A stretch of 64,000 bases of DNA from Leucobacter chromiiresistens (lineage in GTDB: Bacteria > Actinomycetota > Actinomycetes > Actinomycetales > Microbacteriaceae), in assembly GCF_001477055.1 (NCBI RefSeq), contig NZ_LDRK01000026.1:1-64000 (forward strand), in the 5' to 3' direction. Both the position numbers and the translations under genes were made by a program. The notes under the pieces are model-generated. The model saw nothing but the letters and a program-made list of their open reading frames with translations, was not told the DNA's origin and searched no databases. Of this stretch, positions 3,776 to 17,207 are shown in pieces. Every line of letters starts with the position of its first letter. Position 1 is the first letter of the stretch.

Positions 3776-5026
3776 TCACTGGTCGGAGGCGCCGGCAGTC
3801 GCCGGTGCCGTGGCTTCGACGGCCGCTGCGACGCGGTCCGGGGTGCCGAGGAGGTCGATCTGTCGAATCGGGTAGTTGAAGTTCTCGGTGAAGCGATTCG
3901 CGAGTTCCGGGTTGTGCACCATCTCCGAGAACAGGTGCGGAATCTGCGGGGCCGGCGGCAGCTGGATGATGGTGTTCACCCAGTCGGTCGACGCCTCGAG
4001 CCGTTCCGCGCGACGGCGTGCGACCTTGCGCATGAACCGCTCGTCGAACACTCGATCCTCTCGGATCGCGTCGGCCACGACTTTCGCAGAGTACGTGGCG
4101 GAGTTCGCCCCCTGCGCCTGCACCGGGTCGACAGTCATGTGCACGTCGCCGAGGGCGAGCAGGTATCTGCCGTTCGGCAGAAGCACGAAGTCTTCGCGGA
4201 GCACCGGGGTGACGGCTCCCTGGAGAATGTCACGAGCATCCGATTGCAGTACGAACTCCGCCTCGTTCACCCGTTCGGAGACGGAGGGATGGAACTCGCG
4301 CAGCATCTGCAGGGTGAGCTCGCGATAGGCTGCCGGATCCTCCTCGTACCTCCGATCCGTGAGCGCCTCCTGCGGTCCGCCCGGCACGCTTTCGAAGAGC
4401 AGCGCGTGCACCGGCCCGGAGAACGACCACATCGGCAGGGCGAGCAGCTCGCCGGCTGGTGGCGCCACGCTGATCTCGACACCGCGGGGGTCGCGAGGTG
4501 CGACGCCCTTCCAGAACCCGACTGCGAGCTTGCGCTGCGGGCTCGTGTAGGGGGACTTCTCCTCTCGGCGGGGGAAGAGTGCACCGATCTCGCCCTTGCC
4601 CGTCGAGACGACGACGAGATCGTGGACCTCGGTGAGCTGTTCGATCTCCGCAACCGAGAGGTCGCGGATCTCGAGGAGGCCGCCGCGCCTCTCGAACTCG
4701 GCCATGAGCTCGGGCAGATAGATGCGGTAGTCGAGGATGCGAGCCGGCTCCTCGAACTTGCCGGTGAACCGGCGATCGTCACCCCAGCCGTTGTAGTGGT
4801 AGTGGTACGAGTACTCCGCATCGGTGCCGGGCCAGTCCGCGATGCCGAGTTCGCGCTCGATATCGATGGTCGCGCTCATATGGGCCACGCTGTTCATGAT
4901 CTTGCCGTCGCGCACCTGATCTGCGGTGCGGTTGGTGTAGATGGTCACGTCCAGGTCTTGCTGCAGGAGATGGAGACCGAGATGCAGCCCTGCGACCCCT
5001 GCTCCGATGATGCCGATGGTGGTCAT
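3776..5026 (-). CDS. Styrene-monooxygenase-like FAD-dependent oxygenase (StyA family)
   Basis: A 416-residue group-E flavoprotein monooxygenase, essentially the length of StyA. The Rossmann motif GAGVAG is at residues 8-13, and a second FAD block with GD at 293-294 is followed by DPVQAQGAN (300-308). As I recall, true styrene monooxygenases carry N-x-V-x-H near 46-50 and Tyr/His near 73/76, whereas indole monooxygenases carry S-x-Q-x-M and V/I. Here Asn45-Val47-His49 and Tyr72/His75 match the styrene type. It would epoxidise a vinyl-aromatic side chain using FADH2 from the reductase two genes downstream. It is first in its operon, with a 191-bp upstream region containing operator-like repeats. 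Confidence 0.88.
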   Translation of the reverse strand: MTTIGIIGAGVAGLHLGLHLLQQDLDVTIYTNRTADQVRDGKIMNSVAHMSATIDIERELGIADWPGTDAEYSYHYHYNGWGDDRRFTGKFEEPARILDYRIYLPELMAEFERRGGLLEIRDLSVAEIEQLTEVHDLVVVSTGKGEIGALFPRREEKSPYTSPQRKLAVGFWKGVAPRDPRGVEISVAPPAGELLALPMWSFSGPVHALLFESVPGGPQEALTDRRYEEDPAAYRELTLQMLREFHPSVSERVNEAEFVLQSDARDILQGAVTPVLREDFVLLPNGRYLLALGDVHMTVDPVQAQGANSATYSAKVVADAIREDRVFDERFMRKVARRRAERLEASTDWVNTIIQLPPAPQIPHLFSEMVHNPELANRFTENFNYPIRQIDLLGTPDRVAAAVEATAPATAGASDQ

Positions 5027-5217: not shown

Positions 5218-5925
5218 TCAGTGCGACCAGACGTCGGCGGGGCGCTCGACCCTGAGCGCTGCGTGCTGCAGCGCCGGAATCACCTCTCGGACCTCGTGCG
5301 CGCCATTGGGGAAGATCACCGCGATGCTCGCCGGTTGGCCGTCCGGCAGCTCGAGCGGTTTCGCGACCGCTTCGAAGCCCGGGAAGGGAGAACCCTTCGT
5401 GTGCACGTGGCCGATGCTCCGGGCGAGTGCGATCTCGTCGGCTTCGTACTCACGCGCTTCGCCGCGCGCGAGGATCGCCATACCCGGTGCCCCGTCCGTC
5501 AGCAGGAAGCGAGTGCTGCGCCGGATCGCAACCGCGGCGGAACGATGCGACGGTCGAATCGACGCGAGCACGACGGCGTGGTCCTTCTGCGGAACCGAGA
5601 AGATGGCGGTTGCGGAGGTGGCTTCGGCAAGCTCATCGAGCACCTCTTCGATCCGCAACTCGGAGTTGCTCACGCCCGCCTCTGCGAGCGCCGCGATTCC
5701 CGTGCCGAGCGTGTAGCGCCCGTCGGCCGCTCGAGTGACGAAGGTGTAGTCCTCCAGCGTGCGAAGAATGCGATACACCACCGAGCGATGCAGGCCCAGG
5801 GCGTCGGCGAGTTGCTGACTGGTTCGCCTCTGACCGTCGGCGAGCATCTGCAGCGCATCGAGGCCTCGCTCGAGCGTTTGCGAGCGCACGGCGCGGTTCT
5901 TCGCTTCGGTCATGATGCTTGCCAT
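5218..5925 (-). CDS. IclR-family transcriptional regulator
   Basis: A 235-residue regulator. The N-terminal winged helix (about residues 14-75) includes LERGLDALQMLADGQ and LADALGLHRSVVYRILRTLE. A C-terminal IclR effector domain follows from about 85. It is slightly shorter than most family members (about 250-270). IclR proteins commonly control aromatic catabolism and bind the promoter of the adjacent operon; here that is the styA-like operon starting 192 nt downstream in the same direction. The first ATG (5925) lacks a good ribosome site, so the ATG at 5913 (MTEAKN) is an equally possible start. It follows the serine hydrolase gene by 55 nt. Confidence 0.87.
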   Translation of the reverse strand: MASIMTEAKNRAVRSQTLERGLDALQMLADGQRRTSQQLADALGLHRSVVYRILRTLEDYTFVTRAADGRYTLGTGIAALAEAGVSNSELRIEEVLDELAEATSATAIFSVPQKDHAVVLASIRPSHRSAAVAIRRSTRFLLTDGAPGMAILARGEAREYEADEIALARSIGHVHTKGSPFPGFEAVAKPLELPDGQPASIAVIFPNGAHEVREVIPALQHAALRVERPADVWSH

Positions 5926-7090: not shown

Positions 7091-10000
7091 TCAGGACGCG
7101 CGGCGACGCCGCAGCACGAGCAGACTGCCGGCGGCGAAGAGTGCGCCCATGAGCGCGATCGTCACCGGCCACTGGAGGTCGGAGGCGCCGGTGTCGGCGA
7201 GCTCGCGCCTTCCTGCGGAGTCCGTACCGGCGGCACCCGCTGCACTGCCGTCGGCACCGGAGGCGGCCCCGGTCCCGTCATCTGCTCCCTCGTCAGGGCC
7301 GTCTGCCGGTTCGCCCGGTGCTCCGGGGACGCCCGGCTCGGCCGGAGCGCTGGGGTCGCCCGGGCCGCCCGGATCGATCGGGCTGGTCGCGTCGTCGGCG
7401 ACGGTGATGGTGTGCTCGCGCACCACCCCGTTCACGGTCACGGTGAGTGTCGCCTCTCCGACCCCGGTGGCGGTCAGCGCTCCAGTCGACGGGTTGAAGC
7501 GGACCACGCTTTCACCGGCTGCCTCGCTCGCGCTCGCGCTCACGGCGCGGCCGCGCTGATCCGTCTCGACCGATCCGTCGTCGACGATCACTCCGTCGCC
7601 TCCCCAGACCGCGCTCATCGGCCACTGCACCGGCACGATGCGCCCGCCGTCCTGCGAAATGGTGGCATCGACGGTGACGGCCTCTCCGACGGTCATCGCT
7701 GCTGGAACTGCTGCCGTCGCGCCGAGTGTGAGCTCGTCGACGCGGGGCTTCACCTCGGTGCGGAGCCAGTTCGTGCGGCTCGTCACGGGCGTCGGGTTGT
7801 GACCGACGACACCCGAGTTCGGGTTGATGCCGAGCATCGCCCAGCCGGTGAACCCGCCCTGATCGGGCGCGCCCGACGGCCCCTTACCGCTGTTGCCGCT
7901 GAGGAACGTCGATACGCCCTCATGGCTCGTCGCGTGGAATACCCCGGCGTGGCCGTTGATCGAGGCGATCGACTTGCCCGTGTCGGCGCGGAACTCCGCG
8001 AGCCGGTCCTGATACCGCTGCGCTTCGATGCGGTCGGAGAGTTGGCTGTCCTTGCTGCTCTTCGGATCGTCGACCGGATGGTGCGCGAACACCAGCACGC
8101 CCGTGATCGTCGAGTCCTGCTCAGCCTGGGCGAGCGCCTCCTCGAGGAAGCGCATCTGCTGCTTGTCGGAGCCGTTGAACGAGCCGTTCGCAGTGTTCAG
8201 CGTGACGAGAAGCGTGCCGCCCACTTGCTGCTTCGTCTTGGTCGGCCCGAACTCGGCGATGAAGTTCTCGATGGGGCCGCCCATCACCTCGTGGTTGCCC
8301 GGCACGTAGACCCACGGCAGCTGGTCGCCGATCTCATCGTCGAGAATTCTCCGCGCGAGTGCAAGGTCCTCGGGAGCGGCCTCGTCGACGAAGTCGCCGG
8401 TGATCACGAACATGTCGGGCTTCGCGGCGAGGATCTCGCGCAGCGTCTGCCGCGCCCCTTGCACGTTCGGCCCCTCGGGGTTGCGTGCGACGAATTGCGC
8501 GTCGCTCATCACGGCGATGCGTTGCGCGCGCTGATCGACGGTCCCGTTCGTGATGACGAGCGGATCGTGCACGACGGGTGCCTGCGGCTGCGCCACGTCG
8601 GGCGCCACGACAGCGCGGATGCCGGCGAAGCTGGTCTCGCCCTGGTACTGCTTCGCCGCCGAGGTCTCCATCATGCGCACCCGCTCGAGCTGCAGCGGGA
8701 AGGCGGTTCCGACGGGCACCGTGAACGTGATCTCCTGCCAGCCCGTCCAGCTCGTGTGCGGGCCGTCGAGGTTGATCGTCGTGCCGGCGCCGGTCTTCAT
8801 CTGGAGGCGGGGCCAGGTGCTCTTGCCGTCTCCGTGCATCCACATCGTGATCGCCTTCGGCTGCCCCGCGATCTCGATGGGTTCGGGTGCCACCGCGTAC
8901 GCGCCGCGCGTGCCCGTGGACGAAGCGAAGTCGTAGGTGAGTTTCAGTCCCGCCTCGCCGTTCGGTCCAGTCGCCTCCGAGATGGCACCGGTCGCCCGGT
9001 CCGAGCGGAAGGTCCAGTCCTTCCCGTTCGCGAGGTCCGACACCGGAGTCTCCTCCAGGCCGATGGTCACCGCGACGTCGACGCGGCGGTCTCCGGCGGC
9101 GAACGACACGGTCGCCGCCCCGGATGCCGTGCGCGGGGTGATGGTAAAGGTGTTGCCGTCGAGCGATTCGACAGCGACATCCGCACCCGCGGAAACCGTG
9201 AGATCTGCGGCCTCGATGGGTGCTCCGAAACCGTCACGGTCGAGCCCCGTGATCGTCACCGTCTCGCTGCCGTTCTGGTCGACCAGCGCGATGACGCTTC
9301 GGCTGGCACGGAGCCTGTCGAGCTCGCCGAGCACGCGCATCTCGCTCGTCGCCGACTTGCCGGCAGCGGTGAACGTGACGGGTGCGGTGCCCGGGGTCGC
9401 TCCGGTAACCTTCGCGGTGTCTCCGTCGATCGCAGTCAACGTCGCGTGTCCTCCTGCCACGGAGAACTCGCCCGTCGTAGCGAGCGCTCCGCGGTTCGCA
9501 TCGAGGCCGATGCCCGAGACGGTGCGCGAGAAGCCGGGGAACACCGCGTCGGCGTCGTCGAGCTTCGACTCGGGGCCGACGCTCACGTCGGTGACGCCGG
9601 CGTCCGGCGCGGTCGACGAGAACACGAGGCTGTTGGGTACGCTGCGCAGATGCCCGTCGGAGGGTGCATTGCCGACGCTCAGTTCGCTGGTGCCCGGCTC
9701 CCGCATGAGCAGGGTGCTGGATCCGCCGCCGTCGAGGTTGACCGCGTTGTGCGCGCCGAGTTCGACCATGAATTCCCCGAGCTCGTCGAGGGCCATGCCG
9801 CGCGAGTGGCTCTGTCGGCCGTCGAGGGAGACGACGATGACTTCGCTGCCGTCTTCGCTCACGCCGACGGCGGTGCGCGGCTCGCCCGGGGTAGGCGCAC
9901 CGACGACCGCTCCATCGGCGACGAGGCGCTGATTTCCGCTGATCGCGAGATCCACGTCGGCGCTCGCGGCGACCGTGACGGGCATCCGATCGCCGGGCTT

Positions 10001-10813
10001 CACGTCTGCGAAGAGGGCGACGGCCGATCCGCGCGCGAGCACGACGCCCGTTCCCGCGGCGATTGCGGTCGGCCCCGTGATCTCAGCGAGGTCGGCCGAG
10101 GTGCGTGTCACGACTCCGTCGGCGACCTCCACTCGAAGGAACTCCGGATCGATGTTCGCAGGTCCGCCGATCGCGCGCGCCATCGGGTACTCGCCCCACA
10201 TCGGAGTGAAGTACCCGATGCCGTCAAGCGGAATTCCGATGTTGTTGACGGTGCTCACCTGGTGCGCTGTACCCGAGATCTCGACGGTGGCGGCCGAGGT
10301 GAGCGCTTGGATGGCGGCGATGCCCTCGCTCATCGTGAAGCTCTCGACGGGCGACGCGCTCGTGGTCTTCACGCCCTCGCTCGACGAGACGTTGGTGCCC
10401 TGTGCGACACCCGAGTTGTTGATGTCGAAGAACGAGCCGTTGACCGCGGCGACGGCATGATCGCCGAGGGAGTGCTCGGTGACGGGAGCAGGCTTCGTCA
10501 GGCTGCCCGAGTCGCGCACGTCCATCGACAGCGTCGGGGTGGAGAGGTCTGCGACGAGCACGTCGCCCGTCACCCACCCCTCGCTCTGCAACCGGTCGAA
10601 GCTCGTCGCCTTCAGGCCCGGGGCGAGGTGACGCGTCTCAGCGCGGAGCAGGCTCGAATCGCGGCCGCCGAGATCGAGGCCTCCGGTGTCGGGCGACGCG
10701 TAGCTCGCCGTCAGGGTGTGCTGGGGTACGAGAGCGATGCCGCTCACTGCGATGCCGAGACCGAGCCCGGCTGCGAGCGCTGTTCTCAGGGGTGATCGTC
10801 GAGATGAAGACAC
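7091..10813 (-). CDS. Wall-anchored phosphodiester glycosidase / metallophosphoesterase
   Basis: A 1240-residue secreted multidomain protein. A hydrophobic signal segment follows SSSRRSPLRT. The phosphodiester-glycosidase (NAGPA-like) domain has NGSFFD (125-130) and NLDGGGSS (359-366). Ig-like repeats and a carbohydrate-binding-like beta-sandwich follow (about 590-735). The calcineurin-type phosphoesterase domain has GDFVD (from 806), GNHE (839-842), HH (911-912) and GHAGVFH (954-960). A Pro/Gly-rich linker leads to LADTG near 1205, a membrane segment and an RRRRAS tail, meaning class E sortase anchoring. The first phosphoesterase motif reads D-A-Q instead of D-x-H. GTG 10813 is chosen because AGAAAGG lies upstream and the signal peptide then starts correctly. 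It probably acts on glycosyl phosphodiesters at the cell surface, such as teichoic-acid-like polymers. Confidence 0.85.
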   Translation of the reverse strand: MSSSRRSPLRTALAAGLGLGIAVSGIALVPQHTLTASYASPDTGGLDLGGRDSSLLRAETRHLAPGLKATSFDRLQSEGWVTGDVLVADLSTPTLSMDVRDSGSLTKPAPVTEHSLGDHAVAAVNGSFFDINNSGVAQGTNVSSSEGVKTTSASPVESFTMSEGIAAIQALTSAATVEISGTAHQVSTVNNIGIPLDGIGYFTPMWGEYPMARAIGGPANIDPEFLRVEVADGVVTRTSADLAEITGPTAIAAGTGVVLARGSAVALFADVKPGDRMPVTVAASADVDLAISGNQRLVADGAVVGAPTPGEPRTAVGVSEDGSEVIVVSLDGRQSHSRGMALDELGEFMVELGAHNAVNLDGGGSSTLLMREPGTSELSVGNAPSDGHLRSVPNSLVFSSTAPDAGVTDVSVGPESKLDDADAVFPGFSRTVSGIGLDANRGALATTGEFSVAGGHATLTAIDGDTAKVTGATPGTAPVTFTAAGKSATSEMRVLGELDRLRASRSVIALVDQNGSETVTITGLDRDGFGAPIEAADLTVSAGADVAVESLDGNTFTITPRTASGAATVSFAAGDRRVDVAVTIGLEETPVSDLANGKDWTFRSDRATGAISEATGPNGEAGLKLTYDFASSTGTRGAYAVAPEPIEIAGQPKAITMWMHGDGKSTWPRLQMKTGAGTTINLDGPHTSWTGWQEITFTVPVGTAFPLQLERVRMMETSAAKQYQGETSFAGIRAVVAPDVAQPQAPVVHDPLVITNGTVDQRAQRIAVMSDAQFVARNPEGPNVQGARQTLREILAAKPDMFVITGDFVDEAAPEDLALARRILDDEIGDQLPWVYVPGNHEVMGGPIENFIAEFGPTKTKQQVGGTLLVTLNTANGSFNGSDKQQMRFLEEALAQAEQDSTITGVLVFAHHPVDDPKSSKDSQLSDRIEAQRYQDRLAEFRADTGKSIASINGHAGVFHATSHEGVSTFLSGNSGKGPSGAPDQGGFTGWAMLGINPNSGVVGHNPTPVTSRTNWLRTEVKPRVDELTLGATAAVPAAMTVGEAVTVDATISQDGGRIVPVQWPMSAVWGGDGVIVDDGSVETDQRGRAVSASASEAAGESVVRFNPSTGALTATGVGEATLTVTVNGVVREHTITVADDATSPIDPGGPGDPSAPAEPGVPGAPGEPADGPDEGADDGTGAASGADGSAAGAAGTDSAGRRELADTGASDLQWPVTIALMGALFAAGSLLVLRRRRAS

Positions 10814-11200
10814 GAGTTGCCGCAGACCTTTCTTGAGGTGGGAAGCGCGTGCGGCAGCTCGATCCGAAGTATCGGGCCGCCGGGCGCCCAGGTCAGCGTA
10901 GGGAAGTAAAGTAGCGCGAAGATTGCCCGCGGGTGGACGGGAGGATCGCCGGAGGCGCTGGCAGCGCATCGTCCGATCACGCACAGCGCGGGAACGTGGG
11001 TCTCGGCCGGCATGCGCCGGAGTGATCGCCCGGTTGTCGAGAGCGTATGCACGGCTTGTGCCGATCCTGATGCCAGAGGGCGGGGAACCCGGAGCTCATC
11101 GTCCAGACCCCATGAGTAGCGCGATCAACCGTCTCATGAGTGATGCATACCGGTCATCCCGATCGGGCGGAGAACCTCCTCCACGGCGACGCGAAGCGCG
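10814..11200. other. Gene-free stretch upstream of the surface enzyme
   Basis: About 390 bp separate the large surface enzyme and the next plus-strand gene. Open frames here are Arg-rich shadows. It should hold the promoters for both divergently oriented genes, but I see no clear operator, RNA gene or repeat. Confidence 0.5.
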
Positions 11201-13313: not shown

Positions 13314-14252
13314 GTGAACAGTACTGAGCTTCTGGCGGAATACCGACTCCATCTTCTTCGGCTCGGGCGATCGCCCGGAACCTTGAAACAACGGCTCGGC
13401 GATCTCAGCCGGTTGCATGCTCACGCCGGTCCGTTGGAAGACATCACCAAGACCGTCCTCGAGCAGCACCTCGACTTGCACTCGGCAGAGTGGTCGCCCG
13501 CCTACCGGAAGAAGGTATACGCCTCGTATCGATCCTTCTTCCAGTGGGCACGAAAACGGAAGCTCATCGCTCAGAATCCGAGTAGAGGGCTTGAAACGGT
13601 ACGAGTGCCACGGTACCTACCGCGCCCAGCACCCGAAGACGTCGTACTCGATGCGTTCGACAAAGCGTCGACGGTCGAAGCAGCCATGCTGTGCCTCGGC
13701 GCAACCCAGGGTCTCAGACGAAGCGAGATTGCTGCTGCTCACCCTGCCCAGAGGGACGGTATGTCACTCCGTGTGATCGGCAAAGGCTCGAAGGAAAGGT
13801 TGGTCCCGCTCGACCCTCTCACGCTGAGCCTCCTCGAGCAACTGGAGTCGGAGCAAGGGTGCGACGACTACTACTTCCGCGGTCGGTTCGGTGGCCATGT
13901 TCATCCAGCGACGGTGTACAAGTGGCTGAAGCAGCACCTGGGGACCGGGTGGAGCACGCACAACCTGCGGCATCGCGCGGCATCGCACGGCCTCCGCGAA
14001 ACGCACGATTTGCGAGGGGTGCAAGAACTCCTGGGTCATGCCTCTCTTGCGACCACTCAGATATACACCGAGGTGTCCACTGAACAGCTGACGTCGATCG
14101 TGACGGCGAACTCGCTGCGCACCAAGGTGATCGAGCGTCGCTTGAGCCAGACGTTACTCAATACCAACGTGCCTGCCACAGTGACCGATGCAGACGTCCA
14201 GCAAGCAATGAGAGTCCTCGCGCACCATCTGAGCCTTGTCCAAGACGGATGA
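13314..14252 (+). CDS. Tyrosine recombinase / integrase
   Basis: A 312-residue XerC/D-like site-specific recombinase. The N-terminal SAM-like core-binding domain covers about residues 1-90. The catalytic domain has Arg135 (GLRRSE), Lys in GKGSKER (156-162), His216-x-x-Arg219 (HNLRHR), His242 (LLGHAS) and the nucleophile Tyr251 (TQIYTEV), so the full catalytic set is present. The start is a GTG without a clear ribosome site. It begins 158 bp inside attL and reads into the island, so it is the probable integrase. The C-terminal ~50 residues after the Tyr motif extend beyond minimal Xer proteins. No excisionase gene was found. Confidence 0.9.
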   Translation: MNSTELLAEYRLHLLRLGRSPGTLKQRLGDLSRLHAHAGPLEDITKTVLEQHLDLHSAEWSPAYRKKVYASYRSFFQWARKRKLIAQNPSRGLETVRVPRYLPRPAPEDVVLDAFDKASTVEAAMLCLGATQGLRRSEIAAAHPAQRDGMSLRVIGKGSKERLVPLDPLTLSLLEQLESEQGCDDYYFRGRFGGHVHPATVYKWLKQHLGTGWSTHNLRHRAASHGLRETHDLRGVQELLGHASLATTQIYTEVSTEQLTSIVTANSLRTKVIERRLSQTLLNTNVPATVTDADVQQAMRVLAHHLSLVQDG

Positions 14253-15502: not shown

Positions 15503-16765
15503 CTACGCCCGCGCTTCGCAGAGCTCTTCCCAGTGCGTCGTCGCGCGGCGCGAGAGCATCTCCCGCTTCATCGTCCACACCGGAGCTCCCCGCAGGCCAC
15601 CACGGCCGATGCCGATCGCGCGCGGGCCGAGCTTCTGCGTGATGCCGTCCAGCGTCTCTCCGATCCGGCGCCCCTCGTACTCCGGCTCGAACAGCGCGAG
15701 CGGGGCGACGCTTTGCTTCTTCCGTAACCCGGTCAGCACCACCCCGGCTCGCACGTAGTCCGAGCCGGGTCGAACGCGGGGGAGCGCCGCGAACGCGGCC
15801 TTCGCGATCCCGATCGGGTCATCCGTCTCCGTCGGCATCCCGACGGCGACGTGCGCGGTGTGGAACTCGCCCTCGCGGAACCTGCTCGTCGACGCCCAGG
15901 CGGACACCACCCCTGCCACCAGGCCGTGCTCCCGAAGTCGCGTGCTCGCGCGCTGCGCGTAGATCGAGAACACCTGCTGCATGCCCTCCCGGGTCGACAC
16001 CGGCTGGCAGAACGAGCGGGAGAAGATGAGCTGGTCCTTGTGCGGCGGCTGCTCCTCGAGCGGGATGCACGAGATGCCACGCAGCTCAAACACGGTGCGC
16101 TCCATCACCACGGAGAACTTCTTGCGGATCCACTTCGCATCCGCGTCACGGAGATCCTTCGCCGTGAAGATGCTCATCCCCGCGAGGCGCTTTCCCGTGC
16201 GCCCGGCGATGCCCCACAGGTCTGTCGTGCTGGTGCCGGCGAGAATCCGATCCAGCCGGTCGGGGGAGTAGAAGCCTAGGTGGCAGACACCGCCGAGCGA
16301 CAGGTCGGCCTTCGCACCCCGCGAGGCGAGCTTCGCCTGCGTCTTCGATGAGGCGATGCCGACTCGGACAGGGATCCCGGTACAGCGGAGCACCTCGGAG
16401 CGAATCTCATGCCCGATTGCGGTGAGCTCGTCGACCGTTCCGTGCAGGCCGATGAAGGACTCGTCGATCGAGTACACCTCCTGCCATGCCGAGTACCGGC
16501 CGATGATCTCCATCACGCGCGCGGACAGGGAGCCGTAGAGCTCGTAGTTGCTCGAGCGGGCGACGACGCCGGCGCTGGCCGCCCAGTCCTTGATCTTGAA
16601 CCACGGTGCGCCCATCTCGACCTGCAGCGCCTTCGCCTCACGCGACATCGCCACGACGCAGCCATCGTTGTTCGAGAGGACCACCACGGGTCGGCCGTAC
16701 AAGGTGGGATCGAAGACCCGCTCGCAGCTCGCGTAGAAGGACTCGCAGTCCACGAGCGCGATCAT
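15503..16765 (-). CDS. umuC: UmuC-type Y-family DNA polymerase subunit
   Basis: A 420-residue translesion polymerase. The N-terminal catalytic block [18 protein letters not shown] carries the first metal-binding Asp and the steric-gate region. [21 protein letters not shown] follows, then YSIDESF (second acidic pair) in the palm. A UmuC C-terminal region covers the last ~100 residues. The ATG at 16765 aligns with the E. coli UmuC start and lies 4 nt after the umuD stop; a GTG at 16786 would add seven residues. With UmuD it forms the mutagenic SOS polymerase that copies across lesions. It shares the SOS-controlled promoter upstream of umuD. Confidence 0.9.
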
Positions 16766-16769
16766 CCGC

Positions 16770-17207
16770 TTACGCTCGGAGGACACGATGCAGGCTCCTC
16801 GTGACGACGCCCCAGATGTGCAGCTCCGACAGCTCGGCGACCTCGATGTCTGGGTGCTGGCGGTTCTCGGCCGAGAGGATCACGCCGGCGCGCGTCACGC
16901 GGAGCCGTTTCACGGTCATCTCGCCGTCGACGACGGCGACGACGACGTGCCCGTCCTCGGGCCGGATCGAGCGGTCCACGATCAGTTCGTCACCGTCGTA
17001 GATGCCTGCGCGGGTCATGCTGTTGCCGCGCGCACGAATCAGGAACGTGGAGACCCTGTTTGGCATGAGGTGCTCGTTCAGGTCGATCTCGGTCGTCTCG
17101 TAGTCCTGCGCGGGGGAGGGGAAGCCGCACGCGGCCTCGAGGTACGCGAAGGGGACGGCGCCGACGGGCGCGGCAGGATCGAGTGCCCGAACCTCTTCCA
17201 CCCACAT
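16770..17207 (-). CDS. umuD: UmuD-type S24 peptidase / polymerase accessory protein
   Basis: A 145-residue LexA/UmuD-family protein. The self-cleavage site is Cys27-Gly28 in [12 protein letters not shown], close to E. coli UmuD. The catalytic Ser63 is in ARGNSM and Lys100 in MTVKRL. After RecA-stimulated self-cleavage, UmuD' would activate the UmuC polymerase. The ATG at 17207 is chosen because GGGGGCG lies just upstream and because the alternative ATG (17225) falls inside the SOS box. It precedes umuC by 4 nt. Plasmid- and island-borne umuDC cassettes are common; this one lies inside an integrative element. Confidence 0.92.

Follow-up and report, generated by a model that had tools for sequence, protein, structure and literature searches.

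A phosphodiester glycosidase–metallophosphoesterase fusion protein of Leucobacter chromiiresistens with a family-typical motif I and an altered motif V

The stretch of DNA analysed here, referred to as the window, comprises 64,000 nucleotides of Leucobacter chromiiresistens (RefSeq assembly GCF_001477055.1, contig NZ_LDRK01000026.1, positions 1 to 64,000 of the forward strand) and carries a minus-strand gene whose product combines a phosphodiester glycosidase (NAGPA) domain with a calcineurin-like metallophosphoesterase (MPE) domain. The initial annotation had singled out the first MPE motif, which reads D-A-Q instead of D-x-H, as an anomaly that might change the metal site or turn the domain into a binding module. 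The locus raises the question of whether this motif is unusual and of what the metal site may still do. The part that had been flagged is ordinary, and the smaller, real oddity is a change in motif V. Residue numbers follow P0001, the translation of the whole open frame from 10984 to 7091 (-).

The metallophosphoesterase domain and its motif I

A Pfam search of the whole chain returned NAGPA and Metallophos only, with no other family up to an expectation value (E) of 1. NAGPA (PF09992) reached 99.4 bits against a curated cut-off of 25, and Metallophos (PF00149) 39.9 bits against 21.5, the latter over residues 822–977; because both scores lie above their cut-offs, the two-domain assignment is not a product of chance, and the fusion read from the sequence is upheld. 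The predicted structure of residues 805–1075 (mean predicted local distance difference test score, pLDDT, 77.9; predicted template modelling score, pTM, 0.83) matched Rv0805 (2hyp; Z 22.3, root-mean-square deviation (rmsd) 2.2, 209 residues aligned), GpdQ (2dxl_A; Z 22.2, rmsd 2.1, 210 aligned), and ADPRibase-Mn (2nxf; Z 20.1, rmsd 2.9, 219 aligned), and Foldseek likewise ranked Rv0805 and GpdQ at the top. With a Pfam score over the cut-off and an MPE fold matched at Z values of up to 22.3, the domain belongs to the calcineurin-like superfamily. The fold alone is no proof of activity, because the model also matched GAP50 (3tgh, Z 17.0), which we take to be a non-catalytic member of the superfamily.

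The family was examined in 73 rows (71 distinct), namely the window protein, 13 relatives obtained by a whole-protein search, and 59 obtained by a search with the MPE domain. The third residue of motif I was Gln in 70 of these rows, His in two (loci L113 and L114), and Gly in one (L117), and no more than two changes on the tree explain this distribution; since Gln830 is fixed by choice in the rows picked for D-x-Q, the unbiased count is 70 of 73. Both D-x-H rows are sisters and represent one lineage. This comparison indicates that D-x-Q is a stable feature and the norm of the family, so that the D-A-Q motif, correctly read in the initial annotation (D828, Q830), is no anomaly. A recent mutation or a sequencing error in a single genome is rejected as its source, as D-x-Q is common to 70 rows.

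The same motif occurs in a working enzyme. Motif I of ADPRibase-Mn is D[V/I]Q with very few exceptions, a docking model places the carbonyl of Gln27 on metal 1, and the Q27H change lowers the catalytic efficiency about 11–13-fold for three substrates (PMC4334965). The fusion protein, with D-A-Q, does not match the D[V/I]Q of that family; one branch of its own family has D-V-Q. Proven-active close homologues with D-x-Q had been named as the finding that would remove the anomaly; ADPRibase-Mn provides this in substance, being active with D[V/I]Q (PMC4334965), although its kinship to the MPE domain is one of fold and not of close homology. CPPED1, considered as a further D-x-Q candidate, was set aside, as the text consulted gives no residue for this position (PMC8366450).

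The remaining motifs were compared with two published signatures. The superfamily signature DX[H/X]-GDXX[D/X]-GNH[D/E]-H-GHX[H/X], as published (PMC3407115), is matched by D-A-Q, GDFVD, GNHE, H968, and GHAG, and it allows both the Gln of motif I and the Gly of motif V. The class III phosphodiesterase motif, D(X)H ... GH(X)H (PMC4320098), is not matched, since Q830 and G1014 replace His. Across the 68 distinct D-x-Q rows, D864, N897, H898, and H968 are unchanged, and D828 is kept in all 73 rows. Under the general assignment of MPE ligands to metal 1 and metal 2, the usual metal-2 ligands (D864, N897, H968, H1012) are all present, and two of the four usual metal-1 ligands are altered, the motif I His to Gln and the last His of motif V to Gly.

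Motif V and position 1017

The initial annotation overlooked that the last His of motif V is Gly in the window protein (G-H-A-G), as it is in 57 of the 73 rows. Among the 70 D-x-Q rows, motif V reads H-x-G in 55, H-x-Q in 12, and G-x-G (L011), H-x-S, and H-x-H (L043) in one each, and the two D-x-H rows keep H-x-H. Three changes on the tree account for its last residue. Living relatives thus show D-x-H/HxH, D-x-Q/HxH, D-x-Q/HxQ, and D-x-Q/HxG forms, whose order of origin is unproven, as the tree was quickly built, with long deep branches and unsure deep forks.

Three residues past the lost His, the column of H1017 (model column 213) is restricted to His, Asp, and Asn throughout the 70 D-x-Q rows (His 34, Asp 27, and Asn 7 in the 68 distinct ones). 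Five of the 249 well-filled columns are variable yet confined to D/H/N/E/Q/C, and this is the sole one that includes His. It required 13 changes on the tree, compared to two for the third residue of motif I and three for the last residue of motif V. The residue is Ala in both D-x-H rows, a link of D-x-H with Ala1017 that rests on their single lineage, and Ser in L117. We infer that restricted swapping among His, Asp, and Asn is the pattern of a metal ligand or of its hydrogen-bond partner. A tentative and rather doubtful extension, drawn from the alignment, is that a metal-1 ligand has moved: the last His of GHxH would have given way to Gly (or Gln), and the H/D/N residue three positions on would have taken over, paired with the Gln of motif I. 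If true, this would be a new way of building a dinuclear site in the calcineurin-like superfamily, and living relatives would form a graded series from D-x-H/HxH through D-x-Q/HxH, D-x-Q/HxQ, and D-x-Q/HxG to near-total ligand loss.

A separate observation concerns 15 genomes of one bacterial family that have two matches each. In 10 of them, one copy has H-x-G in motif V and the other SHAQ (SHAS once); the corresponding rows are L109–L112, L116, L119–L121, L123, and L124.

Predicted activity of the two domains

The NAGPA domain looks intact by sequence and predicted fold. The model of residues 100–470 (pLDDT 82.4, pTM 0.83) matched 6ozd_A (Z 33.9, rmsd 3.0, 336 aligned), 3ohg (Z 29.2, rmsd 2.5, 242 aligned), and guinea-pig NAGPA (6pku_A; Z 25.2, rmsd 2.5, 218 aligned). 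Altogether, eight solved entries of the NAGPA/DUF2233 fold gave Z values of 23.8–33.9, with the next-best row at Z 6.7. NAGPA lies in the same open frame in 72 of the 73 rows, including 58 of the 59 found through the MPE domain alone.

For the MPE domain, one explanation is that it is no longer catalytic and binds a phosphate-bearing polymer, holding NAGPA on its substrate. The absence of both metal-1 His ligands, including the last His of motif V, speaks for a binder, as do L011, which lacks a third His, and L117 (genome G531), where only the Asp of motif I is kept, the residues of motifs II–V being lost, while NLDGGGS persists in a NAGPA domain altered in one stretch (NASYFD in place of NGxFFD). 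We nevertheless consider this explanation improbable: D864, N897, H898, and H968 never vary among 68 distinct rows, and a pure binder should not need all of them; D-x-Q is, in addition, compatible with activity (PMC4334965). A dead member of the family looks unlike the window protein, because L117, the sole row whose motif I has a third residue other than Gln or His, has also lost the residues of motifs II–V.

The reading we favour, with somewhat better than even confidence, is that the metal-1 site has been rebuilt with the MPE domain still active, and that NAGPA and MPE together trim phosphodiester-linked sugars and phosphate from surface glycopolymers, as suggested by the sequences, the models, and the analogy with ShfP of Bacillus subtilis. 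The protein would be exported and probably sortase-held on the wall, with two catalytic domains. Q830 would bind metal 1 with its side chain, following the docking model for Gln27 in ADPRibase-Mn. The H/D/N residue at 1017 would help to complete or position the metal-1 site, leaving the MPE a working phosphoesterase. NAGPA would first release the sugar from a glycosyl phosphodiester of a surface glycopolymer; the MPE would then hydrolyse the remaining or a neighbouring phosphoester and set free phosphate or a polyol, comparable to the release of glycerol by ShfP. Such sequential action is plausible because the domains stay fused in 72 of the 73 rows. Actinobacterial wall polymers are phosphate-rich, and the substrate is our guess from this and from ShfP. 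In the latter, Ala changes at D927, D963, NHD997–999, H1080, or H1114 together with H1116 are reported to have caused partial or total failure of complementation (PMC11488536); its predicted active-site residues are thus needed for function, which we counted in favour of an active MPE.

Alternatively, both domains may be active on different substrates with no hand-over, NAGPA on glycosyl phosphodiesters and the MPE, like GpdQ or ShfP, on glycerophosphodiesters or teichoic-acid backbones. This alternative shares the active, rebuilt MPE with the reading we favour and differs from it solely in the hand-over. The closest solved folds, Rv0805 and the glycerophosphodiesterase GpdQ, are consistent with it, and so is the release of glycerol by the ShfP pathway (PMC11488536); the nearly constant fusion points the other way, even if constancy is still no proof of hand-over. 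We give it a substantial chance that falls short of even.

Several points weigh against sequential trimming by an active MPE. Two of the four metal-1 ligands are non-standard, and the argument from position 1017 rests on the alignment columns of related rows and not on spatial placement. Motif V of L011 reads AAGVG, so that its first His is lost as well, and together with L117 it suggests that some lineages may do without MPE activity. The sortase motif scores marginally below the cut-off of the LPXTG_anchor model (TIGR01167; 15.8 against 15.9 bits). Finally, none of 12 neighbouring proteins recurs beside the gene in loci from named species, and the neighbourhood offers no hint of a substrate.

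With the fusion and D-x-Q already explained, the earlier anomaly is gone. What the family does offer is one metal site in several forms, canonical at one end and dead at the other, carried by a two-enzyme protein that is otherwise constant. It is a natural series for studying how a dinuclear phosphoesterase works with half of one metal's ligands replaced, and it could equally be used for asking what actinobacteria cut on their own surface.

Gene layout, predicted export, and probable wall anchoring

Table 1. Features of the fusion gene in the window
Feature	Position	Strand	Basis
Gene for NAGPA–MPE fusion protein	7091..10813	-	1,240 aa, residues 58–1297 of P0001; open frame and start kept in homologues
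GAAAGG, probable ribosome-binding site	10827..10832	-	13 bases before GTG; also in homologous upstream regions
Putative N-terminal export signal	10700..10813	-	basic then hydrophobic stretch, read from the sequence by eye
NAGPA (phosphodiester glycosidase) domain	9575..10687	-	residues 100–470; Pfam part 299–455; PF09992, 99.4 bits
Possible carbohydrate-binding module, unconfirmed	8570..9067	-	residues 640–805; CBM_11 in 1 of 13 members, E 0.038
Calcineurin-like MPE domain	7760..8572	-	residues 805–1075; PF00149, 39.9 bits; model
Motif I, D828-A829-Q830 (S-D-A-Q-F)	8495..8503	-	D in 73/73 rows, Q in 70/73
Motif II, GDFVD (D864)	8384..8398	-	D864 invariant in 68 distinct D-x-Q rows
Motif III, GNHE (N897, H898)	8288..8299	-	both invariant in 68 distinct D-x-Q rows
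Motif IV, H968-H-P	8075..8083	-	H968 invariant in 68 distinct D-x-Q rows
Remodelled motif V, G1011-H1012-A-G1014-V-F-H1017	7934..7954	-	last His of GHxH is Gly; column 1017 H/D/N in 70/70 D-x-Q rows
LADTG sorting motif	7187..7201	-	sequence; class E sortase in genome

The positions of the features are listed in Table 1. The GTG start at 10813 is backed by comparison with homologues: GAAAGG and a GTG or ATG were found at the matching place, or at most one codon off, in all six compared (L002, L003, L004, L005, L010, L015), and a 98% identical relative (L014) has the same placement of both. The nearest named relative found was in Leucobacter sp. G161, with 89% identity in the best segment; the genus is placed in Microbacteriaceae. 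The proposed beta-sandwich modules were not borne out, as Pfam named no such domain; in profile searches, CBM_11 gave no match in residues 640–805 of the window protein itself and matched one of its 13 relatives weakly.

Class E sortases favour LAxTG. The genome contains three sortase matches, and of the two that were classified one is class E (NF033747, 206.1 bits against a cut-off of 160) and one class C. The LADTG signal noted earlier is present, and together with the class E sortase it makes surface anchoring likely, so that the fusion protein is probably held on the cell wall by sortase, as far as its sequence tells; the description of the chain as wall-anchored stands in this weaker form, given the anchor score just under its cut-off. 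An L[AP]xTG motif occurs within the last 75 residues of at least 17 of the 73 rows, some loci being incomplete at the C-terminus, and none was seen there in the Streptomyces and Nonomuraea rows (L071, L072). Genome-wide, the LA-x-TG pattern gave 36 matches over both strands, compared to 10 in the control, these being DNA matches and not proteins.

Distribution and genomic context

Among genomes sampled from the window's class, a search with the MPE alignment (A1, E ≤ 1e-30, own genome counted) found the family in 48 of 394; within its taxonomic family, the count was 8 of 299. In a phylum sample, 87 of 296 genomes matched at E 0.001, with more than 200 bits in three only (the own genome, G208, and G089); the remaining matches, all below 50 bits, fit ordinary MPEs, as expected. 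Within the genus, the gene is patchy, because 5 of 24 other genomes have a match with E 0. A relative in Streptomyces clavuligerus is annotated as a phosphodiester glycosidase family protein. The class search gave 63 places; 51 of them entered the rows, and the other 12 were left out. The sequences excluded from the 73 rows were L006, L017, and L018, near-identical to kept rows; the second gene copies L001, L013, L028, L031, L035, L041, and L075; L020 and L030, two fragments from a single divergent relative split over two contigs; and L012, L021–L027, L029, and L032, where the match is to a different part or the protein is a different one.

Three of the 12 neighbouring proteins had matches at E 1e-8, all in L014, and the other loci searched at this threshold, whose flanks are short in part, gave none. 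An origin as a phage gene was rejected: the sole relative labelled as phage, L073 (MT835602.1), looks like a bacterial contig, carrying SelO, amino-acid permease, aldehyde dehydrogenase, and CNNM genes, with a Pfam family in five of nine frames tested. One scan of viral contigs for relatives gave 34 pattern matches, of which none was confirmed. The MT835602.1 record itself, a "Bacteriophage sp." entry from human faeces, appears to be a misfiled bacterial contig.

Elsewhere in the window, a phage-type integrase gene (13314–14252, +) and an ImpB/MucB/SamB-family gene (15503–16786, -) lie close together and are possibly part of a mobile element. Genes encoding an FAD-linked oxidase (133–1806, -), a protein with a styrene-monooxygenase substrate-binding domain (3776–5026, -), and an IclR-type regulator (5218–5925, -) form a group that is perhaps an aromatic-compound catabolic cluster.

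Comparison with known systems

The uncovering enzyme and DUF2233 proteins (NAGPA; 6pku, 6pki, 3ohg, 6ozd) share their fold with most of residues 100–470, as well as the RT-x-x-G, DGR, and NLDGGGS stretches, but their chains, unlike the fusion protein, have no MPE domain. GpdQ and Rv0805, which match the MPE domain best in both fold and sequence, are chains with no NAGPA domain; we take their D-x-H and GHxH motifs to be intact. The ADPRibase-Mn-like phosphatases (2nxf) have the D-x-Q motif I and the MPE fold in common with the fusion protein but are described as ADP-ribose/CDP-alcohol hydrolases with unique s2s3 and h7h8 regions, mainly vertebrate and plant among eukaryotes, and not as surface fusions (PMC4334965, PMC3407115); ADPRibase-Mn was not reached from the MPE domain by sequence search at E 0.1. 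A literature search for a phosphodiester glycosidase paired with a metallophosphoesterase returned no paper, and one for the glycosidase in connection with teichoic acid listed the Updegrove preprint; the scope of these searches did not extend to the motif V change. In spore-forming Bacillota, large proteins are reported to pair NAGPA with another enzyme, prok-TelC (PMC12419801).

The closest parallel is ShfP (YvnB) of B. subtilis, compared here by its published description. Updegrove et al. (2024) place ShfP within a vast radiation of calcineurin-like phosphoesterases at the cell surface, members of which may be joined to NAGPA (PMC11488536), and the NAGPA–MPE fusion is therefore already known and not new. 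ShfP resembles the fusion protein, as predicted here, in being secreted to the surface and in combining an MPE with other domains, and the spacing of 36 between its motif I and II Asp residues (D927/D963) equals that of D828/D864. Phosphoesterases of the ShfP type are marked by an MPE, secreted or held in the membrane, that is joined to adhesion or carbohydrate-binding domains; the window protein shows an export-like start and a fusion with NAGPA, and no adhesion domain was identified in it by Pfam. The two differ in motif V, where ShfP keeps H1114 and H1116 and the fusion protein has H-x-G, and in setting, ShfP serving sporulation and the window protein being actinobacterial.

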